Under the pieces are notes generated by a model. It saw nothing but the letters and a program-made list of their open reading frames with translations, did no database searches and was not told the origin of the DNA. A DNA stretch of 32,308 bases from Methanobrevibacter sp. (lineage in GTDB: Archaea > Methanobacteriota > Methanobacteria > Methanobacteriales > Methanobacteriaceae), in NCBI GenBank assembly GCA_030539935.1, contig JAUNXF010000002.1:1-32308 (forward strand). Direction: 5' to 3'. Below, in pieces: positions 1,548 through 18,587 of the stretch (the first letter of the stretch is position 1; each line of letters opens with the position of its first letter). The position numbers and the translations under genes are program-made.

Positions 1548-2552
1548 ATGATTCCAAAGGTAATGATAATTCTTGGAAGTGCATCTGATAAGGAAATAGC
1601 CATGAAAGCTATTAAAATATTGGAAAAGCTCCAAATTACATATAGTATTAAGGTTGCATCAGCACACAGAACTCATGATAAGGTTAAGAAATTGGTTATG
1701 GATGCAACAAATGAAGGTGTAGAAGTTTTTATAGGAATAGCTGGACTGGCTGCACATTTGCCAGGTGCAATAGCTGCCTATACACATAGGCCTGTGATTG
1801 GAGTTCCCGTTGATGGAGCATTAGGTGGACTTGATGCATTGTACGCTTGCGTTCAAATGCCATTCCCTACAGCCGTAACCACTGTTGGAATCAATAGGGG
1901 AGACAATGCAGCCATTCTTGCAGGGGAAATCATTGCAAGCTATGATGATGAGATTGCAAAAAACATTTCAAAGCTAAGAGAGGAATATCAGCAAAAGGTT
2001 GAAGCTGGAGAAAAGAAGCTTATTGAAAGCATTGAAGGTGAATACTTCCAAAAAGACTTTTTATCAGAAGAGACCTTTGAAAAAATTGAATTTGAAGAAT
2101 TGGATGACACTCCAGATGTAATGATACTTGCAGGCAGTTATTCAGATATGGAAATAGCTAAAAATGTGGCCATTCTGCTGGAAAGAATGCAGATAGAATA
2201 TAAGCTTGATTACATTTCTCCAATAAGACATGCAAAGGATTTTGAATTGTATATGAGCAAAAGAAATAATGCTAAATTATTCATAGCAATCAGTGGATTG
2301 TCTGCCCTTGTAGCAGGATCTGTTGTTGCACTTACCGAAAAGCCGGTTATAGGGGTTCCATGCTCCAAAAAATTAGATGGTCAGGATGCCCTCCTCACTA
2401 TGGCAAACATGCCTCCTGGAGTTCCTGTAGGAACAGTTGGAATAGACAATGGAAGAAATGCTGCAATAGTTGCAGGAGAGATACTTGGAATATCCAACAA
2501 GACAATTGAGGAAAATCTAAAATGGATTAAATACAAAAATGCTGACTTATGA
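1548..2552 (+). CDS. purE: Tandem-domain PurE, N5-carboxyaminoimidazole ribonucleotide mutase
   Basis: Purine biosynthesis in the cytoplasm: forms 4-carboxy-5-aminoimidazole ribonucleotide. The 334-residue chain holds two PurE domains of about 160 residues each. Domain 1 keeps the signatures GSASD (10-14), ASAHRT with the catalytic-type His40, GLAAHLPG (66-73) and VQMP. Domain 2 (about 188-330) has the same fold pattern (AGSYSDMEIA, VIGVP, GTVGID), but SAHRT is replaced by SPIRH and AAHLPG by SALVAG, so it has probably lost catalysis and is structural or regulatory. A two-domain PurE is, to my knowledge, usual in Methanobacteriales. The start follows AGGAG with a 7-nt gap. It leads a long plus-strand run but probably has a housekeeping role unrelated to the wall genes. 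Confidence 0.93.
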   Translation: MIPKVMIILGSASDKEIAMKAIKILEKLQITYSIKVASAHRTHDKVKKLVMDATNEGVEVFIGIAGLAAHLPGAIAAYTHRPVIGVPVDGALGGLDALYACVQMPFPTAVTTVGINRGDNAAILAGEIIASYDDEIAKNISKLREEYQQKVEAGEKKLIESIEGEYFQKDFLSEETFEKIEFEELDDTPDVMILAGSYSDMEIAKNVAILLERMQIEYKLDYISPIRHAKDFELYMSKRNNAKLFIAISGLSALVAGSVVALTEKPVIGVPCSKKLDGQDALLTMANMPPGVPVGTVGIDNGRNAAIVAGEILGISNKTIEENLKWIKYKNADL

Positions 2553-2562
2553 TTGGAGAATG

Positions 2563-2627
2563 ATTTTGATACTGATTGAATGAAATGGATAAATAATTTT
2601 GATACTGATTGAGAGGAAATGGATAAA
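2563..2627 (+). repeat. Imperfect 33-bp tandem duplication between purE and ubiD
   Basis: ATTTTGATACTGATTGA occurs at 2563-2579 and 2596-2612, followed in both by a similar GAAATGGATAAA tract. The period is 33 bp. Confidence 0.8.
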
Positions 2628-2660
2628 ACTGATCTATAAAAAAAGGATTGGGTGATTTTT

Positions 2661-3926
2661 ATGACTAAAGATATTATGAATGTGATTCAGATTGACGATG
2701 AGCTTGATGCTGAATACGAAGCTGCAAAAGTGCTTCGCAAATACCCTAAAGAAACTGTAATGTTAAATAATGTGAAAGGATATGATATTCCAGTGGTTTC
2801 TGGAATCTGCAATACAAGGGAAAAGATAGCGCAATCATTAGGTTGCCAGGTCGATGAAATACTTTACAAAATCATTGATGGGATGAACAATCCCACTCCA
2901 ATTACAAAATTCATTGACTTGAAGGATGAATACAGCAGCAAAAGGGTTGACTTGGGGAAAATACCTATACTAACCCACTATAAGCGTGACGGCGGAGCAT
3001 ACATAACTGCAGGTGTTGTATTTGCAAAGGACCCTGAAACCGGCATTCAAAATGCTTCAATCCACAGAATGCTGGTACTGGAGAAAAATAAGCTCGCCAT
3101 CCGCATTGTGCCAAGAAACCTTTACACCTATTTCCAAAAGGCAAAGGATATGGGTCAGGATCTGGACATTTCAATAGCCATTGGAATGGAACCTTCCATA
3201 CTTCTTGCATGCACCACCTCAATACCAATAGATGCTGATGAAATGGAAGTTGCAAACAGGTTTAAGAATGGGGAATTGGAACTGGTGAATTGTAAAAATG
3301 GAATAAAGGTTCCGGAAGCAGACATTATCTTCGAAGGTAAAATACTGATTGATGAGACTGCACCTGAAGGCCCATTTGTAGATTTGACCGACACTTATGA
3401 TTATGTAAGGGAGGAGCCTGTAATAAAGTTAAGCAAAATGTACATCAAGAAAGAAAATCCGATGTACCATGCAATCCTTCCAGCAGGATTTGAACATAAG
3501 CTTCTTCAGGGCATGCCACAGGAGCCAAGAATATTCAATGCTGTAAAGAACACAGTTCCTACCGTACAGAATGTGGTTCTTACAGAAGGAGGCTGCTGTT
3601 GGTTGCATGCAGCCGTTTCAGTCAAAAAGCAAACTGAAGGAGATGGAAAGAACATTATCATGGCAGCACTTGCTGCACATCCGTCATTGAAGCATGTTGT
3701 TGTGGTGGATGAGGATGTGAACATTTTTGACCCTCAGGATATTGAATATGCAATAGCAACCCGTGTAAAGGGTGATGATGACATAATCATTGTGCCTAAG
3801 GCAAGAGGCTCTTCCTTAGATCCAAAAGCTTCTGAAATCGATGGAACAACTACTAAAGTAGGTGTAGATGCTACAAAATCAATTCTAGAGCCAGAAAAAT
3901 TCGAAAGAGTAAGCTTTAGCGAATAA
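2661..3926 (+). CDS. UbiD-family decarboxylase, probable anhydromevalonate phosphate decarboxylase
   Basis: UbiD enzymes use prenylated FMN to decarboxylate unsaturated acids. In archaea without the classical mevalonate-5-phosphate route, a UbiD homologue converts trans-anhydromevalonate 5-phosphate to isopentenyl phosphate, feeding isoprenoid lipids. The 421-residue length fits that archaeal group. Visible family features are [11 protein letters not shown], the NASIHRM segment, RIVPRNLY and the [14 protein letters not shown] segment with the conserved acidic residue. A GTG at 2652 is in frame, but the GGTGA at 2652-2656 is itself the ribosome-binding site for the ATG at 2661, so I use 2661. 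The specific substrate is inferred from the archaeal setting. A general UbiD role remains possible. Confidence 0.85.
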
Positions 3927-3992: not shown

Positions 3993-4964
3993 ATGGAAAA
4001 GGTAGGTATTATAGGAGCAGGCAGCTTAGGAACAGCCTTAGCGCAAATCGTATCCCAAAATGTAGATGAGGTGTGCCTATATTTAAGAAGGGAGGAATTG
4101 GCCAATACCATTAATGAGACAGGCATCAACAATGAATACTATCCTAACACCAAACTGGAGGAAAATATAATAGCTACCAACGATTACAATGATTTGAAAG
4201 ATTGCAATATAATCTTTCTATCAATCCCATCATCAGCATTCAGATCCACATTATCTGAAATCAAAGACTGCATCAATGAAGACACAATTCTTGTCACAAC
4301 TGCAAAAGGCATTGAATATCCTTCACTGAAAACCATGGGAAAGATTATCGAAGAGTATTTTGACAGCGACTATGTAGCATTGTCAGGCCCTAACTTCGCA
4401 TCTGAAATGATATTGAACCTTGCAACCGTTTCAAATATAGCATCCAGAAACAATGAAAATGCCTTAAGGGTTAAAGAGGTATTGTCAACCGACCATTTCA
4501 AGGTCAAGATCATACCTGATGTCATAGGCCTTGAAATTTGCGGCATCATAAAAAACATCAATGCAATAGCCAACGGCATATGTGAAGGGATGAACATCAA
4601 TGAAAATGCAAGATATGGTGTTTTGACCAAAGGTTTCGAGGAAACCAAAAAGATTATTGAAAGCATTGGAGGAGACGAATCCACAGCAGGAGAGTATTGC
4701 GGCTTTGGAGACCTTGTACTAACTTCAACCTCAAGCGAAAGCAGAAATCACACATTAGGCATGTTATACGGCCAAAGGATAATTGTTGATGAAAAGGCAA
4801 GCGGAATCGTTTTTGAAGGGAAAAATTCAATTATGGCCATAAAGGACATATGTGAAAAGACCAATACGAAAAGTGTGGTTGTTGACTTTGTATATGATGT
4901 GATTGTAAATCAAATCCCTCCAAAAATAGCTTTCAAGACATTATGGGAAAACATTGAAGATTAA
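3993..4964 (+). CDS. gpsA: NAD(P)-dependent glycerol-3-phosphate dehydrogenase (GpsA type)
   Basis: Reduces dihydroxyacetone phosphate to sn-glycerol-3-phosphate. The family marks are the N-terminal GAGSLG nucleotide site (8-13), the TTAKGIE segment (102-108), LSGPNFASEM (130-139), catalytic-type Lys187 in IIKNI, and the C-terminal GFGDLVLTSTSSESRNHTLG segment (237-256). The length of 323 is normal. Archaeal lipids are built on glycerol-1-phosphate by an unrelated enzyme, so this gene is not expected for membranes. The next gene is a glycerol-3-phosphate cytidylyltransferase, which gives it an obvious role as precursor supplier for CDP-glycerol. The start has GGTGA 4 nt upstream. Horizontal acquisition from bacteria is likely but unproven. 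Confidence 0.9.
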   Translation: MEKVGIIGAGSLGTALAQIVSQNVDEVCLYLRREELANTINETGINNEYYPNTKLEENIIATNDYNDLKDCNIIFLSIPSSAFRSTLSEIKDCINEDTILVTTAKGIEYPSLKTMGKIIEEYFDSDYVALSGPNFASEMILNLATVSNIASRNNENALRVKEVLSTDHFKVKIIPDVIGLEICGIIKNINAIANGICEGMNINENARYGVLTKGFEETKKIIESIGGDESTAGEYCGFGDLVLTSTSSESRNHTLGMLYGQRIIVDEKASGIVFEGKNSIMAIKDICEKTNTKSVVVDFVYDVIVNQIPPKIAFKTLWENIED

Positions 4965-5020
4965 AATTATAACTTTAAGAAAGACTGATTCAAAAATCAT
5001 TTACTAAAAGAGGCTTAACC

Positions 5021-6334
5021 ATGAAAAAGGTAATTACCTATGGAACATTCGACATGTTTCATGAGGGGCATTATAATATTTTAAAGAGGGCAAGGGAATA
5101 TGGAGATTATCTAATCGTCGGCGTCACTGGAGAGAACTATGACATCGGCAGAGGTAAATTAAGCGTTCATGACACTCTTGCAACAAGAATTGAAAATGTA
5201 AAGAACACCGGCTTAGTGGATGAAATCATCGTTGAGGAATACCTTGGACAAAAGATAGGTGACATAATAAAATATGAAATCGATTCCTTTGTGATTGGTG
5301 ATGATTGGGCCGGAAAATTTGACCACTTATCCAGATACTGCAATATGATATATTTGGAAAGAACAAAAGGCATTTCAAGCACAAAGCTTAGGCAGGAAAC
5401 ATTTGAAAACTATGATATAGGAATAATAACCGATGAAGCGGACGACAACGAATTGGTTAAGGAAGCCAAATTAGTAAATGGATTTGAGGTGAAGAATGTC
5501 TTTTGCGATAATGAAAAGACATTGGAGGCCTTCCAAGAGAAATATAATGTAGAGAATGAATTTGATAGCGAAGAGGAAATGATTGAAGCGTCTGACATTG
5601 TCTTTGTTCGTTGCTCAATCGAAAAAAGATTCAATTACATTCGCCAAGCATTAAAGGCAGGAAAGCATGTCATATATGACTCTCCTGCAACTTTCAAATC
5701 CAGTGAATTGAAAGAGCTGATCAGTCTATCCAAGGAAAATAATGTAATCCTGATGGAAAACATTAAGATGGTTCATATTTATGTATTCAATCAGCTGCTA
5801 TGGATGACACAGGGCGGATTGATTGGAGATATCCTAAGCTTCAACTGTTCCATTTCAAAAAATGATGAGAGCCGTTCCAATCTATTCTACGACCTAAGTG
5901 CATTGAGCCTGCTTCCAATGCTAAAGATTATGGGACAGGATTATGAAAAGGCCGATTTCAAGGTTACAAAAGATGGGGACAATATTGAATTTGCATCCAT
6001 GAACTTTGTATATCCTAATGGAAGAGCCGTCATCAATGTGGGAAATGTTGTTCGTGTTGATAATCAATTGGAAATCATTGGAACAAAAGGAACCATCCGC
6101 ATGAGAGGAAATTGGTGGAGAAGCAAAAACTTTTCACTGCATAAGCCTGGAGAGATTGATGCAGAGCTATACAATACAAACTTTGAGGGAAATGGCTTCA
6201 AATATTTAATCAAGGCAATGTCCAATATGCTAAACAATAACAGCATAGACTCAATGGGCGTATTCGAAGACGAATCCATAAGAATTGTGGAGATTCTTGA
6301 GGAGGTAAAAAGAACTGACGATAATACAATCTAA
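5021..6334 (+). CDS. TagD-type glycerol-3-phosphate cytidylyltransferase fused to a Gfo/Idh/MocA-like domain
   Basis: Residues 1-128 match TagD-type cytidylyltransferases: YGTFDMFHEGH with the HxGH motif (14-17), the VIGDDWAGKFD segment (91-101) and RTKGISSTKLR (114-124). The reaction would be CTP plus glycerol-3-phosphate giving CDP-glycerol. Residues about 130-437 resemble a Gfo/Idh/MocA oxidoreductase (for example the helix ending AGKHVIYDSP, 213-222). However, the usual glycine-rich NAD loop is not evident at its start, and the typical EKP triad reads DSP. The second domain may therefore be inactive, or bind a nucleotide or sugar without catalysis. The fusion is unusual. AGAGG lies 7 nt before the ATG. 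Upstream gpsA supplies the substrate, and the TagB/TagF-like protein at 12565 would use the product. Confidence 0.87.
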   Translation: MKKVITYGTFDMFHEGHYNILKRAREYGDYLIVGVTGENYDIGRGKLSVHDTLATRIENVKNTGLVDEIIVEEYLGQKIGDIIKYEIDSFVIGDDWAGKFDHLSRYCNMIYLERTKGISSTKLRQETFENYDIGIITDEADDNELVKEAKLVNGFEVKNVFCDNEKTLEAFQEKYNVENEFDSEEEMIEASDIVFVRCSIEKRFNYIRQALKAGKHVIYDSPATFKSSELKELISLSKENNVILMENIKMVHIYVFNQLLWMTQGGLIGDILSFNCSISKNDESRSNLFYDLSALSLLPMLKIMGQDYEKADFKVTKDGDNIEFASMNFVYPNGRAVINVGNVVRVDNQLEIIGTKGTIRMRGNWWRSKNFSLHKPGEIDAELYNTNFEGNGFKYLIKAMSNMLNNNSIDSMGVFEDESIRIVEILEEVKRTDDNTI

Positions 6335-6417
6335 CAGTTATTAATGAACAATTAAGTGATGGCGAAGCTAAAAAGCCATGGGCAAAAACAAAAAAACTAT
6401 AAACAAAGCAAATAGGA

Positions 6418-6435
6418 AATACTAAACTTAGTATT
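6418..6435. promoter_or_regulatory. Perfect 8-bp inverted repeat before the licD ribosome-binding site
   Basis: AATACTAA, two bases (AC), then TTAGTATT, ending where the AAGGAG ribosome-binding site begins. It could be a dimeric repressor operator or a short RNA hairpin controlling translation. No TATA box of obvious quality is paired with it. Confidence 0.45.
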
Positions 6436-6450
6436 AAGGAGAAGTTATCA

Positions 6451-8091
6451 ATGAATAGTTTACATGAGAATCTGTTTAAGCTCCTGATTGAGATAGATGA
6501 TATCTGCAATGAACATGACATCGATTATTGCCTTGCCGGCGGAACTGCATTAGGTGCAATCAGAAATCAGTGCTTCCTTCCATGGGATGATGATATCGAT
6601 TTATACATTACTCGAGACAATTGGTTAAAATTCTATGACTTGATAAGCAAACACCCTGAAATATTGCCTGAAAACAGAAACTTGGTCTGCATTGAAAATG
6701 CGCCATATCATAGAAATCCAATTGTTCGCTATGTCGATACATCAAAAACCACAATCTATCCCGCACAATCCATATCTGCAAAAACATGTGGAGATCAAAT
6801 AGAGTTTTTCATCTTGGATCCTATTCCAAATGAAGATGATGGGAGAAAGGAACATTTGAATCAGATGAGAGCATTTTTAGAAATTCTTTCTCCATACTTT
6901 ATGGTATGCCATAGCCTTCCATTGGATGACTATGCGGACCATAGGGATTTAGTGCTGAGTTTATATGATGAAATCAAAAGGAAAGGATACTCTGCAGTGA
7001 TGGATGAGCTATACGAAAAACTATATAATTATCCTATGGAAAAGGCAGATACACTATGTCTGCGTTGGGGAAAGAGAACACTGCTTCATGAAAAGAGATT
7101 TTATAGTGATAAGCGCTACGAAGAATTGGAAGGTCGAAAATTCCCTGTGGCCTATGAATTGGAACATGCATTGAGAACCGATTATGGAGATACTTGGATG
7201 TACATACCTCAAGGAGAGGGAAAGATATCCCATAATCCCTTAGTTGAAGACCCGAATCGTCCATTTGAAGACTTTACAAGCATTTACCTCAAATTCATTG
7301 ATCAGGAAAAGGTTACCCAAGCCTATGAAACCAATAAGCGCAGCAATCTGAAATCATGGATTCCTAGAAGAAAGGTTGAACTTGAAGAAGCCAGGATGAA
7401 GGGAATTCTTGTAAAGGTAGAGCTGGAAAAGAAAATGGAATCTAATGGCTATGATTTAAAACAGCTTCTGGAAGATAAGGACTATGAAATCTTAAATAAA
7501 CTTTTTGAGGACTACTATTCCATTCAATTACATCAGAACTGCAGAAAATACAATTTCCTCATAGACATAGACAAGGATATAATAAAAATAGCCCTTCTAA
7601 ATAAAATCAATCAGGGACAGTTCTATACAGCAAGAAATATAATTAACATTCTTGAAAAGAATTTTGAGCTTGACAGTGATTTTAAGCATTATAAGGACAT
7701 GTGCATCTTCTGCAAGAAACTGTCCATTGCAATTTATGATGACCATGATGCAGAGATGTTGGAAAGCTTATTGAATAATATGGAAGAAGATTGTGAAGGC
7801 TTGGTTGACACTTATAGGGCAATATTATGGTTGGACATGCAGAAGGCTGAAGATAATGATGACTATGAACACATAATCTCTAAAGGAAATGAATTGTTAA
7901 GGGATTACCCTGATGATGGAGAGATTATGGCATATATAGCTGAAGCCCACTATCATCTTGGTGAAGAGGAGAAGGCACGTGAAATCTTTGATAAGGCAGT
8001 TCACCACACAAGAAATGGATTTGTTTGGCAGAATGCAAAACGATATGTCGGCATTGATAGAATGGCGGAGGAAGAGATAGATGTTGACTAA
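6451..8091 (+). CDS. LicD-family phosphotransferase with C-terminal TPR-like repeats
   Basis: LicD proteins transfer a phosphate-linked group such as phosphocholine from a CDP carrier onto glycans. The nucleotidyltransferase-fold core is intact: CLAGGTALGAIR (27-38) followed by PWDDDIDLY (44-52), with the metal-binding Asp cluster. Residues about 420-545 form helical repeats of TPR type (for example DGEIMAYIAEAHYHLGEEEK), an extension beyond a simple ~270-residue LicD. AAGGAG lies 7 nt before the ATG. The stop overlaps the next gene by 11 bp, implying coupled translation. The group transferred is not known. The CDP-activating enzymes nearby at 5021 and 11736 are candidate donors' sources. Confidence 0.88.
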   Translation: MNSLHENLFKLLIEIDDICNEHDIDYCLAGGTALGAIRNQCFLPWDDDIDLYITRDNWLKFYDLISKHPEILPENRNLVCIENAPYHRNPIVRYVDTSKTTIYPAQSISAKTCGDQIEFFILDPIPNEDDGRKEHLNQMRAFLEILSPYFMVCHSLPLDDYADHRDLVLSLYDEIKRKGYSAVMDELYEKLYNYPMEKADTLCLRWGKRTLLHEKRFYSDKRYEELEGRKFPVAYELEHALRTDYGDTWMYIPQGEGKISHNPLVEDPNRPFEDFTSIYLKFIDQEKVTQAYETNKRSNLKSWIPRRKVELEEARMKGILVKVELEKKMESNGYDLKQLLEDKDYEILNKLFEDYYSIQLHQNCRKYNFLIDIDKDIIKIALLNKINQGQFYTARNIINILEKNFELDSDFKHYKDMCIFCKKLSIAIYDDHDAEMLESLLNNMEEDCEGLVDTYRAILWLDMQKAEDNDDYEHIISKGNELLRDYPDDGEIMAYIAEAHYHLGEEEKAREIFDKAVHHTRNGFVWQNAKRYVGIDRMAEEEIDVD

Positions 8092-9256
8092 AAAGGACAT
8101 ACAATTAAAATTGCTTCGTAAATTTAATGAGCTGTGTGATGAGGCAAATGTCAAATACGCATTGCATGGCCAAGGGGCATTATTGGCATATCAAAATGAA
8201 CCTATTGACAGCTTAAAAGAATTGGAGGTAATGATGTGCCAAGGGGATGCTGAAAAGATTTCCAAGCTCTTGGATGATGATGATTTCTATTTCGAAGACT
8301 TCAGGACAAACCCTAAGTTTGACATTCACTTGATGATGTTTGGATACAGAGATTCCCTGGACTTGAAAATGAGGGATGTTGACTTTAGAAAATCCTATCA
8401 CATAGAAAACAATTGCATCCATATCAATATTCGATTTATAGAACATCTTGTCTCAGGTAAAACCAAGCAAATACTGGATCTTGAACGAAAAGCGTGGAAA
8501 CTGAAAAACTTTGACCTTGAAACCAATCATCTGTGGTATCTGAACTATAGTAAAAAGGCATTGAATGCATTCCATCACATTACTGGAAACGGTCGTACAA
8601 TAAACCGAAGATATAAGACCAAAAAGGACAATTATTCAATATGGACTTGGGATGATATTGAAAAATACCAAATCGTAAGCATTGGTGAAAACAAGATCGT
8701 TAACTCTAATCTATTCAAGGATATTATCGAAACAGATTTGGAAGGCATTCCAACCTATATCCTAAAAGACTTTGAGCGTTACGCTGAATTCTGTTATGGG
8801 GAAAACTGGCCTATAAGAATTTGGGAAAGCCCTTATAAATATACAAGCACTCTCATCAATTGGGAGGAATATTCAAGCATTCCCGAAATTCAAGAATCTA
8901 TGGATAAAATGCAAGAGCTTTATGAAGAAATCTACTCCAATAGCATCAAGGCAAGAAGAGCCAAGGTTGTCATTGCGAACATGAAAAACCATGTAAAGCA
9001 AAGCGGAAGGGTTATTCACAGACGTGAAGAGTATATTGAGCAAAAAGAAGAGATTCTTAAATTATATGAGGATGGAAATATTGATGAATTAAGCTTGATC
9101 TTCAAGCCATTGGTTGAGGCCATGGAAAAAGGTGTCAAATTAGGTTATACCTTTTCAGTTGATGATGAAATCGATGAAATATTCGATTCATATTTAAGAA
9201 AGGTTGATCAGGAAAAAATGGCTGATAAGATTAAAAAATTAAGGATAGACATTTAA
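8081..9256 (+). CDS. LicD-like protein lacking the acidic active-site motif
   Basis: The N-terminus parallels the preceding LicD (KLLRKFNELCDEANVKYALHG against NLFKLLIEIDDICNEHDIDY), but where a LicD has a GG..LGA segment and DDDID this one reads QGALLAYQNEPIDSLKELEV (31-50). The Asp cluster is gone. The C-terminal third is charged and helical and resembles the matching part of its neighbour. It is probably a diverged paralogue without catalysis of its own, perhaps a partner subunit. The start ATG lies within the last codons of the upstream gene, with GGAGG 9 nt before it, so the two are made together. This supports a heteromeric complex by inference only. Confidence 0.75.
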   Translation: MLTKKDIQLKLLRKFNELCDEANVKYALHGQGALLAYQNEPIDSLKELEVMMCQGDAEKISKLLDDDDFYFEDFRTNPKFDIHLMMFGYRDSLDLKMRDVDFRKSYHIENNCIHINIRFIEHLVSGKTKQILDLERKAWKLKNFDLETNHLWYLNYSKKALNAFHHITGNGRTINRRYKTKKDNYSIWTWDDIEKYQIVSIGENKIVNSNLFKDIIETDLEGIPTYILKDFERYAEFCYGENWPIRIWESPYKYTSTLINWEEYSSIPEIQESMDKMQELYEEIYSNSIKARRAKVVIANMKNHVKQSGRVIHRREEYIEQKEEILKLYEDGNIDELSLIFKPLVEAMEKGVKLGYTFSVDDEIDEIFDSYLRKVDQEKMADKIKKLRIDI

Positions 9257-9292
9257 AACATGATGAAAGTCAATTTAAGATAAACATTTAAA
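9244..9292 (+). repeat. Echo of the LicD-like gene 3' end, period 35 bp
   Basis: The end of the gene (LRIDI-stop) is followed 35 bp later by a decayed copy that reads FKINI-stop in the same alignment: GATAGACATTTAAA at 9244-9257 and GATAAACATTTAAA at 9279-9292. Confidence 0.75.
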
Positions 9293-9334
9293 TTATGCTA
9301 AACTAGTAATCAAAGAAATTCAAGGAGGAATAAC

Positions 9335-10396
9335 TTGTACTATATAAATGAAGACGTTAAAAATTTATTTAGAATTTTTGACCAAAATTCAAGAGATGGA
9401 TATATTCGTATGGACTTAAACGAAAATCCGGTTGGCCTATCACAGGAGTTTATAGATGAGGTGCTCTCAAAGGTTACACCGGAATTTGTAGCCAAATACC
9501 CGGAACAGTTGGAATTCACAACCAAATTGGCTGAATTCCTAGGTATTGAAATAGAAAATATCTGTTTGGTGAACGGTTCCGCTGAAGGTATTCGTCATGT
9601 TATTCAAGCTTATAGCAGACCTGGAGGAAAGGTATTGTCAGTTACCCCATCATATGCAATGTATGATGTGTACTGTGAAATGTATGGAAGGGAAAGTGTG
9701 CATGTCAACTATGATGAAAAGCTGGAGATGCATGTGGATGACATTGTCAATGCCATTACAGATGACATTGACCTTGTGATAATATTAAATCCAAACAATC
9801 CTGTCGGTGATGTCTATACATATGAAGAGGCAGATAGGATATTGGAAGCATGCAAGGAACATGAATGCACATTGCTGATTGATGAGGCCTATTTCTATTT
9901 CTACCCAAACTCATTCATCAACTATGCATTGGAAAACGACCATGTATTGTTGACCAGAACATTCTCCAAAGTGTTTTCCCTTGCAGGATGCCGTTTGGGA
10001 TATGTTGTCGGAAAGCCTGAAGATATAGCAATAGTGCAGAAATTGTGCACCCCCCACAATGTCAACGCATTTGGAATGCTCTTTGCCCAATCAATCATCG
10101 AAAAGGAGGGCATGATTGATGAGTTGGTTGAAAAGCAATTAAATGGAAAACAACATCTAATTGATAGATTGATTGAAAATGGATACACAGTCAGTGCCAA
10201 AGAGGGAAACTTCATATTCATCAAGCCTAAAAAGGTGGATGCCTCTGAAATTGTAAGGAGAATGAAAGAGGAGAAGAAGATTTTAATAAAGGTCTACAAG
10301 GACGTTCCTGATTTGGGAGACTGCTTGCGTGTTTCCATTGGGGAAAGTGAGGTTATGGACAAGTTCATTGAAGCATTGAAAGACATCGACCAATAG
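9335..10396 (+). CDS. HisC-like PLP-dependent aminotransferase (or decarboxylase)
   Basis: Fold-type I aminotransferase of the histidinol-phosphate/CobD group, 353 residues: DLNENPVG (27-34), NPNNPVG (152-158), DEAYFYFYP (183-191) and TRTFSKVFSLAGCRLGY (207-223), where Lys212 is the PLP lysine. The TTG start is backed by GGAGG 6 nt upstream, and no better ATG exists. No other his gene is nearby. It sits between LicD-like and opine-dehydrogenase-like genes, so histidine synthesis is unlikely to be its main job. HisC/CobD-like enzymes in Campylobacter capsule clusters make serinol phosphate from dihydroxyacetone phosphate or ethanolamine phosphate from phosphoserine. A similar role here is an attractive inference. 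Confidence 0.85.
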   Translation: MYYINEDVKNLFRIFDQNSRDGYIRMDLNENPVGLSQEFIDEVLSKVTPEFVAKYPEQLEFTTKLAEFLGIEIENICLVNGSAEGIRHVIQAYSRPGGKVLSVTPSYAMYDVYCEMYGRESVHVNYDEKLEMHVDDIVNAITDDIDLVIILNPNNPVGDVYTYEEADRILEACKEHECTLLIDEAYFYFYPNSFINYALENDHVLLTRTFSKVFSLAGCRLGYVVGKPEDIAIVQKLCTPHNVNAFGMLFAQSIIEKEGMIDELVEKQLNGKQHLIDRLIENGYTVSAKEGNFIFIKPKKVDASEIVRRMKEEKKILIKVYKDVPDLGDCLRVSIGESEVMDKFIEALKDIDQ

Positions 10397-10442
10397 ACAA
10401 GAATTAATGGATAAGTCCAAAACAGAAAGACATCGACCAATA
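10378..10442 (+). repeat. Echo of the aminotransferase 3' end, period 47 bp
   Basis: An exact 18-bp match (GAAAGACATCGACCAATA) covers the last codons at 10378-10395 and recurs at 10425-10442. Both copies run into a stop (TAG and TAA). Confidence 0.9.
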
Positions 10443-10523
10443 AATGTTAAAGGAGATAAGATTTCTAAAATATTCAACTAAAATTTTATAGAGACTAAAG
10501 GATAATTAAAAGGAATGGTTAAA

Positions 10524-11639
10524 ATGAAGATTTGTATTGTCGGAGCAGGTAACATTGGCTTGGTATTGGCCAGCACAATAGCCTTATTGAAGGAACATGA
10601 AGTGGTCATTTACACCCATAAGGAATTTGATGCATCCAAATTGACATTTGAGGATGCTGAAAACGATAAGGAATATGACAACTTGGACATTAGCGTGGAA
10701 ACCGATATGGAAAAGGCTTTGGCAAATGCAGATTACGTGTTCTGCACATATCCGGCATTCCTGAGAAAGGATTTCATTGAAAAAAGCAAAGCATATTATG
10801 CAAAAGGATGCAAATTAGGTTTCCTTCCAGGATATGGCGGAGCTGAATACATGTGCAGAGAACTGGTGGAAAGTGGAATTTCAGTTTTCGGCCTGCAACG
10901 TGTTCCTTTTGTTGCAAGACAATCCAACAAGGAAATAGCTACCTGCCTATCAAGAAAAACCAATTTATATCTCGCTTCCATTCCTAAAGATAAGGGTGAA
11001 GAGATCTGCAGGGAAATTGAAGAGCTGATTGGCATTCCAACCACTCAATTGAATGAATATTTGGCGGTTACATTGGCCCCATCAAATCCATTGCTCCACT
11101 TGTCTGGAGTCTATAATGTCTTCAAGGATTATGAAGAGGGGGATTCATACGACAGGCAATTGATGTTTTATGAGGAATGGAATGATGAAACCTCTGAATT
11201 GCTATTAAAATATGATGATGAGCTCCAGGAGATTTGCAATCGCATGAAACCATTGAATCTTGAAGAGGTTGTCTCATTAAGAATCTATTATGAATCACCT
11301 ACTGCAGAGGCCATGACCAGAAAGCTGAAAAGCATCAAGGCATTTGAAGTGGTTCAAGTTCCATTGGTTGAAGAGGATGGGAAATTTTACCCTGATTTCA
11401 ACTCCAGAATGTTTTTAGAGGATTTCCCATATGGAATTGCAATCATAAAATACTTTGGAACATTGACAAATGTTGACACTCCTGCAATTGACACAATCTT
11501 GAAATTTTATGAGGATAAGCAGGGAATCTGCTATTTCAATGAGGATGGAAGCCCTGGAAAGGACTTTGAAAACTCTGGCATTCCAGCGAATTATGGTTTG
11601 GATAACTTGGAATCCATTATAGAATATTATAGGATGTAA
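10524..11639 (+). CDS. NAD/NADP octopine/nopaline dehydrogenase-family protein
   Basis: Opine dehydrogenases reductively join an amine to a 2-oxo acid using NAD(P)H. The N-terminal Rossmann motif GAGNIG is at 7-12. The C-terminal helical domain carries the family stretch LAPSNPLLHLSGVYNVFKDY and then FYEEWNDETSELL. Length 371 fits. An ATG at 10515 is also in frame, but the AGGA abuts it, while the ATG at 10524 has the better 9-nt gap and puts MKICIVGAGN at the start as in relatives. Placed between an aminotransferase and a cytidylyltransferase, it may N-alkylate the amino product or modify a sugar amine. The substrate is unknown. Confidence 0.83.
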   Translation: MKICIVGAGNIGLVLASTIALLKEHEVVIYTHKEFDASKLTFEDAENDKEYDNLDISVETDMEKALANADYVFCTYPAFLRKDFIEKSKAYYAKGCKLGFLPGYGGAEYMCRELVESGISVFGLQRVPFVARQSNKEIATCLSRKTNLYLASIPKDKGEEICREIEELIGIPTTQLNEYLAVTLAPSNPLLHLSGVYNVFKDYEEGDSYDRQLMFYEEWNDETSELLLKYDDELQEICNRMKPLNLEEVVSLRIYYESPTAEAMTRKLKSIKAFEVVQVPLVEEDGKFYPDFNSRMFLEDFPYGIAIIKYFGTLTNVDTPAIDTILKFYEDKQGICYFNEDGSPGKDFENSGIPANYGLDNLESIIEYYRM

Positions 11640-11735
11640 AAAAAGTGAAATTCATCTTTAATGCATTATAATAAAAAAATGAATAAAGTCCATAAATATT
11701 TTTAGAATATAGTGAAAAATTATAAAAGGGATAGA

Positions 11736-12503
11736 ATGATTGGCGTAATATTATCTGCTGGCATGGGTACAAGACTGATGCCCCTTACAAAGGAAATTCC
11801 AAAGACCATGCTTGAAATAAATGGGATGACCCTGCTTGAGCGAATGATAAGAAACTGCATTGATGCAGGCATTAACAAATTCATAGTCATAGTAGGTTAC
11901 AACATGGAAAAGGTGACTGAACTATGTCCACAAATAGCTGAAAAATATGACATTGAAATAAAAGCCATTGCAAATGAAAAGTATGACATTACAAACACTT
12001 CCGTTTCAACCTATCTTGCAAGCAAATTCATTGAGGAAAATGATTTGGATGATTTTGTCCTGATAAATGGTGACAATGTCGTTGACCCAAAGATCATTTC
12101 CAATATAGTCGCTTCCAATAACACAGGAATGATAATAGACAATTTCAAGGAACTGAATGAAGAATCATTCAAGCTTATAATCGATGATGAATCCTTTAAT
12201 GAAGAAAGGACAATAGCCAACGGCAAAATAAATTCCATTGGAAAGGGATTGGACATCCCATCATCCACTGGAGAATTCATTGGAGTCTCTAAGGTGGTCA
12301 GCGATGATGTGGCCGAATTCAATAGGATATTGGAAAGCTTGATTGAAGAGGATCCTCAAAACTACTATGATTTTGCATTTAAGGACTTGAGCATTATCAA
12401 AACAATCGACTTTGTCTTGACAAATGGATTGAAATGGACTGAAATAGATGATCATAATGATTGGGAAAAGGCCCAAATTCTGGTAAGGGAATTGGAAGGC
12501 TAA
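11736..12503 (+). CDS. LicC-like nucleotidyltransferase (probable CTP:phospho-alcohol cytidylyltransferase)
   Basis: The N-terminal signature LSAGMGTRLMPLTKEIPKTM (6-25) is the sugar-nucleotidyltransferase NTP-binding loop with the downstream Lys. LINGDNVVD holds the metal-binding Asp. At 255 residues it is the size of LicC-type cytidylyltransferases (phosphocholine, phosphonate or inositol-phosphate) rather than long glucose-1-phosphate enzymes with a left-handed helix domain. A GTG at 11712 is in frame, but AAAGGG lies 5 nt before the ATG at 11736, which I chose. It would activate a phosphorylated small molecule to a CDP form for the LicD proteins. TagD at 5021 already covers glycerol-3-phosphate, so a second substrate is implied. 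Confidence 0.83.
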   Translation: MIGVILSAGMGTRLMPLTKEIPKTMLEINGMTLLERMIRNCIDAGINKFIVIVGYNMEKVTELCPQIAEKYDIEIKAIANEKYDITNTSVSTYLASKFIEENDLDDFVLINGDNVVDPKIISNIVASNNTGMIIDNFKELNEESFKLIIDDESFNEERTIANGKINSIGKGLDIPSSTGEFIGVSKVVSDDVAEFNRILESLIEEDPQNYYDFAFKDLSIIKTIDFVLTNGLKWTEIDDHNDWEKAQILVRELEG

Positions 12504-12564
12504 ACCTTTTAAATGCCTTAAGGAAAAACTATAGGGTAAAAAGGAATTATATGGAGAAACTGTT

Positions 12565-13758
12565 ATGAACATAAAAAAGATTCTTAAGGACATGGCAAAA
12601 TACTCTGTAAGAGGATTATACATTTTAGGGTCCCATATCATTCCTGCCAATGAAAAGATCATTCTTTTTGAATCAGGCAATGGCCGTAATTATTCAGGAA
12701 ATCCAAGATACATTTATGAGGAAATCCTTAATCAAGGTTTGAATGATGAATTTAAGTGTGTGTGGTCACTCATAGATACAGACATCAAAATTCCAGGAAA
12801 TCCAGTCAAGGTGAGGAGGTCCTATTTCAAATTTCTATACTACACTCTTAGAAGCGGCGCCTGGATATTTGATGCAAGGCACCTATACTATCTCAGAAAA
12901 AACAAGAAAGCCAAATACGTTCAGACATGGCATGGAACTCCACTTAAGAAATTGGCGCTGGATATGGAATACATGGACATGAACGGCAGCCAAGACATTG
13001 AAAGGTATCATCAGGAATTTAGGGACAATTCCCTATTATGGCAATACCTCATCTCACAGAATCCATTCTCTTCAGAAATATTTAGAAGCGCATTCGATTT
13101 CAAGGGTGAAATGCTTGAAATAGGCTATCCGAGAAATGACATTCTCATAAACAGAAACAATGCTGAAGACATTGATGAGATAAAAGGCCGATTCAATATT
13201 CCTAAGGATAAGAAGATCATTCTTTATGCTCCTACCTGGAGAGACAATCAATACCACGACAATAACGAGTATAAGTTTGCAACGGAAATGGACTTTGACA
13301 AAATGCATAAGGAATTAGGTGATGAATACACCTTAATCGTAAAGTTCCATTATCTCGTAAAGGAAAACATAGATTGGAGCAGATACGATAACTTTGTAAT
13401 TGAATGTGATGCAGAATGGGACATTCAGGAGCTCTACTTGATTTCTGACATGATGATAACCGACTATTCATCTGTCATGTTTGACTATTCAATCCTAAAA
13501 AGGCCTATGATATTCTTTGCATATGATCTGGACAATTATAAAAACAACTTAAGGGGATTCTATTTCGACATGTTTGAAGAGGTTCCAGGCCCTATATGCC
13601 AAACAAACGAGGAAATGATTGAATTCATAAAAAACTACACTGAAGAGGACTACCAAACCCAATTTGGTGAAAAGTACAAAAAATGGAGTGAGAAGTTCAA
13701 TCCATTCGATGATGGAAATGCATCAAAAAAAGTCATAGAATTGATAAGAAATAAGTGA
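12565..13758 (+). CDS. CDP-glycerol glycerophosphotransferase, TagB/TagF type
   Basis: Transfers glycerol phosphate from CDP-glycerol to a lipid-linked or polymeric acceptor at the inner face of the membrane. Family marks are VQTWHGTPLKKL (119-130) with His123, IGYPRND (186-192), LYAPTWRD (220-227), VKFHYL with His262, and ITDYSSVMFDYSIL (298-311). The two His correspond to the conserved pair of TagF. At 397 residues it has a single transferase domain like the primase TagB, not the ~740-residue TagF, so it could add one unit or polymerise; the sequence does not decide. GGAG lies 8 nt before the ATG. It closes the phosphoglycan run and is the expected consumer of the CDP-glycerol made by gpsA and the TagD fusion. 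Confidence 0.9.
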   Translation: MNIKKILKDMAKYSVRGLYILGSHIIPANEKIILFESGNGRNYSGNPRYIYEEILNQGLNDEFKCVWSLIDTDIKIPGNPVKVRRSYFKFLYYTLRSGAWIFDARHLYYLRKNKKAKYVQTWHGTPLKKLALDMEYMDMNGSQDIERYHQEFRDNSLLWQYLISQNPFSSEIFRSAFDFKGEMLEIGYPRNDILINRNNAEDIDEIKGRFNIPKDKKIILYAPTWRDNQYHDNNEYKFATEMDFDKMHKELGDEYTLIVKFHYLVKENIDWSRYDNFVIECDAEWDIQELYLISDMMITDYSSVMFDYSILKRPMIFFAYDLDNYKNNLRGFYFDMFEEVPGPICQTNEEMIEFIKNYTEEDYQTQFGEKYKKWSEKFNPFDDGNASKKVIELIRNK

Positions 13759-17301: not shown

Positions 17302-18288
17302 CTAAAGAGCATCCTTAACCATGTCTTCCAATATTTCAATTAGGATGTCATCATCACATATTGGTTCAGGGTACAATATTTCCCCTTCAAATTCCATCTT
17401 GACATCATCGTGTCCATGATGATGGTGATGATGTCCGTGGTCATGACTATGGCTGTGGTCATGACTATGTTCATGGTCATGGTCATGACTGTGTTCATGA
17501 CTGTGGCTATGGCCGTGATCGTGATGGTGATGGTGATGATGTCCGCTTCCATCATCTTCAATAAGTCCTAAAATTGTTGGAATGTCCCTTGTGGTATGTG
17601 CTCCAGGTGCAATGAATACAGGAACAACAACCAATCTGTCCACTTCGTTTTCACTTACAAGCTTGTTAATTGAGGTTGGAATGTTAGGCTCTACAAGCTC
17701 CATGAAACCAAAGTCACAAGGGTAGTCACATTGAGCCTCAAACTGTCCAAATAGGTCTGTAATAAATTCCTTGCTGTAGTTTAATCTACTGCCGTGGACA
17801 ACAAGCAAAATTCCTGTTTTGGCATCGCCGTCAAGTGATGAGCCTTCAAGAGCACCGCTTATCTTATTGTTTATGATTTCCAAAAGCCTTGGATTAGGGC
17901 CTATAGGGCCGATCAAATCAATGTCTCCATCAAAGTCAACATCTTCAAGACCATATAGATAATGGCCTTCAGGGTAAATTCCATCAGGCTGTCTTGGATC
18001 TGTCTCCTTAGGTTCAAGGCCTAAAATGATTGGTATGTCAATGTTTGTATGAATTCCGGCAGCTAAGAATACCGGAGTGGCTATAATGCGTTTTAAGTTA
18101 GGATTGCGCTCTTTCAATAAATCAATGGCTTCCTTCAAGTTTGGATGAGCCACTTTCATGTATCCCACTTCAGCATCAAATTCTGTTTTATCCTTGAACT
18201 TTGCACAAATATTTTTAAACACTTCTTCTGCATAGGGAAGAGTACTTCCATGACTTAATAATAATACAGCAGTATCTTCATAACTCAT
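17302..18288 (-). CDS. Two-domain CbiX/CfbA sirohydrochlorin chelatase with His-rich loop
   Basis: Inserts Co or Ni into sirohydrochlorin for B12 or coenzyme F430. Two CbiX domains are fused. Each keeps both active-site His: LLSHGS (His13) and AAGIHTNIDIP (His80) in domain 1; VVHGS (His165) and APGAHTTRDIP (His231) in domain 2. Between about 250 and 298 lies a segment with roughly 28 His mixed with Asp, Ser, Gly and Glu, a plausible metal store like those of nickel or cobalt handling proteins. Archaeal CbiX/CfbA is normally a single ~130-145-residue domain, so this is a long form. GTG 18297 is in frame, but its GTGAT more likely serves the ATG at 18288. Metal preference cannot be read. Confidence 0.88.
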   Translation of the reverse strand: MSYEDTAVLLLSHGSTLPYAEEVFKNICAKFKDKTEFDAEVGYMKVAHPNLKEAIDLLKERNPNLKRIIATPVFLAAGIHTNIDIPIILGLEPKETDPRQPDGIYPEGHYLYGLEDVDFDGDIDLIGPIGPNPRLLEIINNKISGALEGSSLDGDAKTGILLVVHGSRLNYSKEFITDLFGQFEAQCDYPCDFGFMELVEPNIPTSINKLVSENEVDRLVVVPVFIAPGAHTTRDIPTILGLIEDDGSGHHHHHHHDHGHSHSHEHSHDHDHEHSHDHSHSHDHGHHHHHHGHDDVKMEFEGEILYPEPICDDDILIEILEDMVKDAL

Positions 18289-18587
18289 AATAATCACATA
18301 TAAATATAATTAATTTTCATCAAATCTATGACCGTGTAAAATTTTAATTAAATAATCATAAATATTAAAAATCCTAATAAATTTTACTTAAATTCCTTTA
18401 TACTATAAATTATTGGTTTATAGTTAATCAACTTTATTAATAATTATTAAAATTAATTTTAAATTGATTTTAAAGTAATAAATTTTTAATAAAAATATTA
18501 AAAAAAGTATTACTGCACATTCATAAAAAATAAAATAGCTAAAAAGCTATTTTTAAAAGTTACAATTGAATCTTCAAGACCATAAAA
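18289..18587. other. AT-rich region between cbiX and the DUF35 gene
   Basis: About 300 bp. It contains the cbiX promoter, including an inverted repeat CTATAAA/TTTATAG (18403-18409 and 18417-18423) about 115 bp before cbiX, and a hairpin near the DUF35 stop. No small gene was seen. Confidence 0.5.
18532..18553 (-). terminator. Perfect 9-bp hairpin downstream of the DUF35 gene
   Basis: AAAATAGCT, loop AAAA, AGCTATTTT. On the minus strand it follows the stop codon by about 35 bp and is flanked by T-runs. A terminator or processing site is likely. Confidence 0.5.

Follow-up and report, generated by a model that had tools for sequence, protein, structure and literature searches.

A teichoic-acid-like locus with an exchangeable, probably amino-phosphate-directed gene cassette in Methanobrevibacter

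We have analysed a 32,308 nucleotide stretch of a Methanobrevibacter-type genome (contig JAUNXF010000002.1, positions 1 to 32,308, from an assembly of 154 contigs; hereafter the window) which carries at 3993-13758 a run of eight uninterrupted genes, all on the plus strand and several preceded by a recognisable ribosome-binding site. Gene content and comparison with related loci argue strongly for a core of the teichoic acid kind, accompanied by an exchangeable amino-phosphate cassette, and we estimate at about 0.55 the probability that this is a two-layer surface-glycan locus, core plus cassette, whose enzymes act as proposed below. The original prediction for this region, made from the window sequence alone, had the coordinates and strand right and counted nine genes; the ninth may come from a two-domain TagD fusion counted twice. 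The gene families which it named were borne out by Pfam and NCBIfam profile matches, and its general picture of a glycerol-phosphate pathway (GpsA, a cytidylyltransferase and a TagF-type transferase) joined to an amino-phosphate decoration module is supported. The motifs and gene order recur in related Methanobrevibacter: two loci, L025 in an uncultured Methanobrevibacter (G014) and L074 in genome G009, show the same order with 67-96% identity to the window over these genes and their upstream flank, and the arrangement is therefore not due to chance.

In the proposed scheme GpsA would reduce dihydroxyacetone phosphate (DHAP) to sn-glycerol-3-phosphate, the LicC-like enzyme would combine this with cytidine triphosphate (CTP) to give CDP-glycerol, and the TarF/TagF-like transferase would place glycerol phosphate on a surface glycan, either as one unit or as a polymer. 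The cassette would form an insert between GpsA and LicC. Within it the HisC-like pyridoxal phosphate (PLP) enzyme would supply an amino-alcohol phosphate; serinol phosphate derived from DHAP is the most plausible candidate and ethanolamine phosphate the alternative. The opine dehydrogenase would couple the amine of this compound to a 2-oxo acid, the TagD domain would activate the N-carboxyalkylated amino-alcohol phosphate with CTP, and LicD1, probably together with an inactive LicD2, would transfer the activated amino-phosphate to the glycan. The glycerol-phosphate core is the firmest part of this scheme and is highly probable; a role of the cassette in amino-phosphate chemistry is reasonably likely, and an N-carboxyalkyl amino-alcohol phosphate as its product is a tentative proposal.

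The core comprises GpsA (3993-4964), the LicC-like cytidylyltransferase (11712-12503) and the TarF/TagF-like putative CDP-glycerol glycerophosphotransferase (12565-13758). GpsA, an NAD(P)H-dependent glycerol-3-phosphate dehydrogenase, scores above the cut-off of its model (NF000942, 265.5 bits against 257) and is encoded by 24 of the 37 genomes examined in the family. The LicC-like protein matches NTP_transferase (PF00483, 62 bits) and has as its best solved relative the phosphocholine cytidylyltransferase 1jyk (56 bits). The transferase matches Glyphos_transf (PF04464) with 382 bits, aligns over 384 residues with the catalytic domain of its closest solved relative, S. epidermidis TagF (3l7i, 331 bits), and keeps both conserved histidine motifs, TWHGTP and FHYL. 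These three genes occupy a fixed site across Methanobrevibacter, M. ruminantium M1 (G012) included. Core-only sites lie between PurE-UbiD on the upstream side and a radical-SAM gene on the downstream side (L099-L101, L103, L105; partial context in L106, L116 and L117), and some of them also hold other PF04464 or acyltransferase-like genes; in a different genus (L104) the GpsA-LicC-TarF trio is found at another place. The trio was seen cassette-free, either at the Methanobrevibacter site or in other genera, in L099-L101, L104-L106, L111, L113, L114, L116 and L117. The flank upstream of the window locus (1548-3926, plus strand), a 334-residue PurE-type protein followed by a UbiD-type decarboxylase, keeps its place in L025, L074, L090, L092, L094, L095, L100-L103 and L105 and is a marker of the locus that stands outside the pathway.

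The bacterial wall teichoic acid pathway (TagD/TagB/TagF, TarF) shares with this core sn-glycerol-3-phosphate, CDP-glycerol and a TagF-type transferase with histidine motifs, but here CDP-glycerol would probably come from a LicC-like enzyme and the wall is of pseudomurein instead of peptidoglycan. Neither a TagA-type linkage-unit glycosyltransferase (PF03808) nor an LCP ligase (PF03816) was found in any of the 37 genomes, the window's own included, with B. subtilis giving the expected positive control. The locus is therefore teichoic-acid-like and not the canonical wall teichoic acid pathway, and the appeal that had been made to the bacterial pathway as such does not hold. The same absences are in favour of a different reading, in which single glycerol-phosphate and amino-phosphate groups would decorate a surface or protein glycan and no teichoic-like polymer would exist; so is the transferase itself, which has only 397 residues and whose top NCBIfam match, TarF, lies at 345 bits, below the cut-off of 550. 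On the other side, S. epidermidis TagF is a polymerase, several further PF04464 genes occur in these genomes, and the wall phosphate of M. ruminantium M1 is high; we regard the polymer-free reading as possible but doubtful. Of the earlier proposal, a TagB/TagF transferase that helps to build a glycerol-phosphate polymer or glycan, the transferase is supported and the polymer is a possibility only.

That these archaea may have a teichoic-acid-like wall polymer was already published for M. ruminantium M1, in which teichoic-acid gene homologues were reported together with wall phosphate at teichoic-acid-like levels (Leahy et al., 2010; PMC2812497), and so the idea as such had a precedent. The main text of that paper assigns no pathway to these genes (PMC2812497). 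M1 shares the core genes and their site, but the TagD/LicD/opine cassette is not there. In its LicC-like gene (L100, 8181-8970) the conserved WTEIDDH stretch runs on in another frame. What is new here is the core/cassette architecture, the proposed enzyme reassignment and the opine cassette, and with them an old observation, the phosphate-rich walls of M. ruminantium, can be tied to specific genes.

The reassignment concerns which enzyme makes CDP-glycerol. TagD had been predicted to do so, with the LicC-like enzyme activating the amino-alcohol phosphate; this assignment is not supported by the linkage of LicC with GpsA and TarF, and the simplest reading would give the LicC-like enzyme to the core and the TagD fusion to the cassette. 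Across the 37 genomes GpsA and the LicC-like gene are both present in 22 and both missing in 12, leaving three discordant (Fisher test, 6e-7, the kinship of the genomes being ignored); one of the three is G009, whose contig stops ahead of LicC. GpsA and the LicC-like gene stand next to each other in further families of the order as well (L108-L110). Of the 23 LicC-like-positive genomes 13, M. ruminantium M1 among them, have no TagD-type match of at least 99 bits, and TarF and GpsA keep their LicC-like gene where TagD is absent. The TagD fusion for its part is tied to aminotransferases, and mostly to LicD, also in loci without GpsA (L098 and the bacterial L027, L058 and L059). Two acidic residues touch the substrate amine in Spn-LicC (D105/D192) and Tde-PntC (E104/E196) (PMC6697681); at the first of these positions the window protein and the other GpsA-linked archaeal homologues have Asn, in a motif that reads NGD where LicC/PntC read DAD/ESD, and bacterial LicC-CobD fusions linked to opine genes have Glu. 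This Asn is support, not proof, for the reassignment. Known substrates of the LicC/IMPCT family include phosphocholine, phosphoglutamine, inositol phosphate and phosphoglycerate, CpgD being the phosphoglycerate enzyme (PMC12275187). Because of the co-occurrence with GpsA, the shared neighbourhood, the TagD-free genomes and the Asn at the amine-contact site we consider it likely that the LicC-like enzyme, rather than TagD, makes CDP-glycerol, and the evidence for the reassignment of the two enzymes is moderate.

The converse assignment, TagD supplying CDP-glycerol to the TarF-like transferase and the LicC-like enzyme activating the amino-alcohol phosphate, draws on the nearness of the TagD domain to the B. 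subtilis and S. aureus-type glycerol-3-phosphate cytidylyltransferases (GCT) and on the kinship of the LicC-like protein with 1jyk, but the TagD-free cores, the GpsA-free TagD fusions and the replaced amine-contact acid make it improbable. It would also be conceivable that both cytidylyltransferases make CDP-glycerol, for instance for different isomers or for two transferases, with the HisC-like enzyme and the opine dehydrogenase making a separate small decoration or metabolite. Both families contain, or plausibly contain, glycerol-phosphate enzymes, and LicD domains might transfer glycerol phosphate; the recurrence of an aminotransferase beside the TagD fusion in bacteria and archaea is hard to explain by CDP-glycerol alone, however, and we judge this version quite unlikely.

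The cassette opens with the TagD fusion (5021-6334). Its TagD domain matches CTP_transf (60 bits) and the structure 1coz (116 bits) and carries the HxGH and RTxGISST motifs; against the TagD equivalog TIGR01518 it reaches 109.7 bits, below the cut-off of 165.4. Fused to it is a GFO_IDH_MocA domain (PF01408, 47.5 bits). Neither GxGxxG nor the EKP lysine was found in five aligned TagD fusions, a loss that had gone unmentioned, and this domain is therefore probably not a working dehydrogenase. The fusion as a whole probably activates an amino-bearing phosphate, and its TagD domain would suit serinol phosphate, since this resembles glycerol-3-phosphate in shape, an amine replacing the 2-hydroxyl. 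The only TagD above the curated cut-off in 61 genomes is a different one (206 bits; L107, 12911-13309, in contig C223 of G015), a stand-alone gene flanked by two LicD genes in a locus of another type than that of the window.

LicD1 (6451-8091), a LicD phosphotransferase domain (PF04991, 75.5 bits) with a TPR-like C-terminus, has an intact PWDDDID motif. It overlaps by 11 bases with LicD2 (8081-9256), a divergent LicD with no Pfam match and a weak NF045866 match only. Both of the LicD-like proteins that had been predicted are thus present; that the second lacks WDDDID had gone unmentioned. The motif is lost in the window LicD2, in its aligned archaeal orthologues and in the second LicD of a Clostridium locus (L026), and kept in the neighbouring LicD1, and this recurrence of intact/degenerate pairs suggests that LicD2 is a probable non-catalytic partner. 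With a mean predicted local distance difference test score (pLDDT) of about 45, the AlphaFold models obtained for LicD2 and the TagD fusion were too poor for fold searches.

Exchange of the cassette is seen in sister genomes. In L090-L092, L094 and L095 the gap between GpsA and LicC is filled by a TagD-GFO fusion, a class V aminotransferase (PhnW/BhcA-like) and LicD genes, to which some of these loci add an ornithine-cyclodeaminase/SbnB-like reductase. Most cassette-bearing relatives have a different aminotransferase where the window has the HisC-like gene, and from these layouts the HisC-like/opine pair of the window sits where others have an aminotransferase or an aminotransferase/reductase pair. 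An aminotransferase gene lies beside or near the TagD fusion in the window, L025, L074, L090-L092, L094, L095, L097, L098, L058, L059 and L027. In the bacterial locus L059 the SbnB-like reductase and the opine dehydrogenase occur side by side, together with a class V aminotransferase, so that the two reductases are not strict alternatives. In two bacterial opine loci (L059, 6623-8754; L073, 2-1614) the ornithine-cyclodeaminase/SbnB-like reductase adjoins a PLP enzyme, which points to C-N chemistry of a second, undefined kind.

The pair itself consists of the HisC-like enzyme (9335-10396, with a TTG start) and an octopine/nopaline-type dehydrogenase (10515-11639). The former falls below the cut-offs of both the HisC model (TIGR01141, 243.3 bits against 276.55) and the CobD-type model (TIGR01140, 166 against 290.55); other, weaker HisC-type homologues exist elsewhere in the same genomes, and in a tree the HisC-like proteins form their own clade, set apart from these and from the fusion domains. 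The dehydrogenase matches PF02317 (83.2 bits, cut-off 30), has a Rossmann N-terminus and aligns over its full length with octopine dehydrogenase 3c7a. Its homologues in a Clostridium metagenome-assembled genome (70% identity) and in Firmicutes bacterium M10-2 (52%) each stand beside an orthologous HisC-like gene (57-59% identity), and homologues turned up in 16 further genomes when 345 and 295 bacterial genomes were searched. Within 7 kb of 19 bacterial opine genes there was a LicD in 13, a PLP enzyme in 13 and a cytidylyltransferase-type gene in about 15. Several of these loci encode a protein of about 605 residues with a LicC-type and a CobD-like PLP domain in one chain, and in one locus LicC is fused to choline kinase; because of these partners the amine substrate of the opine dehydrogenase is suggested to be an amino-alcohol phosphate. 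The LicC-CobD fusions belong to another clade, and their specificity is therefore not transferable to the window HisC-like enzyme.

In the tree the opine genes from archaea make up a single clade, which adjoins the Clostridium gene and lies inside the bacterial set (100/100), and the archaeal HisC-like genes fall with the same Bacillota. From this placement among bacteria it is likely that the pair passed from Firmicutes to Methanobrevibacter; base composition lends no support to a recent acquisition of the cassette, whose GC content overall and at third codon positions (GC3) is similar to that of the flanks. In the Firmicutes loci (L026, L027, L058) the orthologues of the HisC-like and opine genes are accompanied by LicD, a cytidylyltransferase or both, but the GpsA core is absent. 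The literature searches made found no published characterisation of these loci, no paper among the listed hits linking an opine dehydrogenase to capsule or O-antigen loci and none joining Methanobrevibacter with LicD; the opine/LicD decoration module of Firmicutes appears to be undescribed. In Campylobacter jejuni the HisC-like proteins Cj1436 and Cj1437 make ethanolamine phosphate or serinol phosphate for the capsule; there the amine is joined to glucuronic acid as an amide, unlike here. Opine dehydrogenases also serve metallophores in bacteria, but an opine metallophore of the staphylopine kind was rejected as very improbable, since the staphylopine dehydrogenase model gives 16.8 bits against a cut-off of 675, no metallophore synthase or transporter gene was recognised adjoining the opine gene, and its partners are LicD and cytidylyltransferases.

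The Lic/Pnt pathways for phosphocholine and 2-aminoethylphosphonate tailoring (PMC6697681) share with the cassette the logic of amine source, cytidylyltransferase and LicD; they differ in that here a TagD-type enzyme probably activates and an opine step is added. No choline kinase LicA was seen beside LicC among the annotated cluster genes or in the scanned flanks, the rest of the genome being unsearched. A phosphonate route was likewise rejected as unlikely, since no phosphoenolpyruvate (PEP) mutase was found in the window genome (75% complete), G009 or G014. Other genomes do have PEP mutase genes (G006, contig C57, 5410-6186; G007, C9, 5090-5863; G010, C218, 18067-18840; G020, C1, 1105302-1106075), in open frames of about 435 residues in which a weak TIGR01518 match adjoins the mutase in the same frame, suggesting PEP mutase-cytidylyltransferase fusions; that of G010 is on the contig which carries its cassette.

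Several points weigh against the two-layer reading with a LicC-like CDP-glycerol enzyme. The second acidic amine-contact position (D192/E196) is kept, as Asp219; Asn occupies the first also in the Clostridium LicC-like protein of the opine cluster L026, and the residue is thus not fully diagnostic; and the frame of the M1 gene is broken near its end by a single-base frameshift, either a sequencing error or a real lesion. The TagD domain is nearest to genuine glycerol-3-phosphate cytidylyltransferases, the co-occurrence test is phylogenetically uncorrected, and the window genome is only 75% complete. For the HisC-like enzyme neither profile scores nor tree separate a decarboxylase from an aminotransferase. 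All reactions, their order and their products, the wall structure included, are deduced from the genes.

Bacterial-type glycerol-3-phosphate dehydrogenase is sporadic in archaea. Bacterial phospholipid genes in archaea have been judged unlikely to serve membrane lipids there (Coleman et al., 2019; PMC6431249), and a glycerol-phosphate surface glycan offers a concrete, testable alternative role for archaeal GpsA. The fullest version of this proposal, in which the pseudomurein wall would carry an sn-glycerol-3-phosphate polymer bearing an opine-type amino-alcohol phosphate, made with a Firmicutes-derived pair and a new LicC branch and explaining GpsA in the order, is speculative and rather unlikely to hold in every detail. 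The reading in two layers would nevertheless indicate a likely non-TagD way to CDP-glycerol, and exchangeable surface chemistry of rumen and gut methanogens may affect phage adsorption, host recognition and methanogen vaccines.

Two further genes of the window had unusual features. The PurE-type protein of the upstream flank (1548-2552) gives two matches to the PurE model, as tandem PurE-like halves. The protein encoded at 17302-18297, which we take to be possibly CbiX-like, contains an extended run rich in histidine (HHHHHHHDHGHSH...), which is probably a metal-binding insert.

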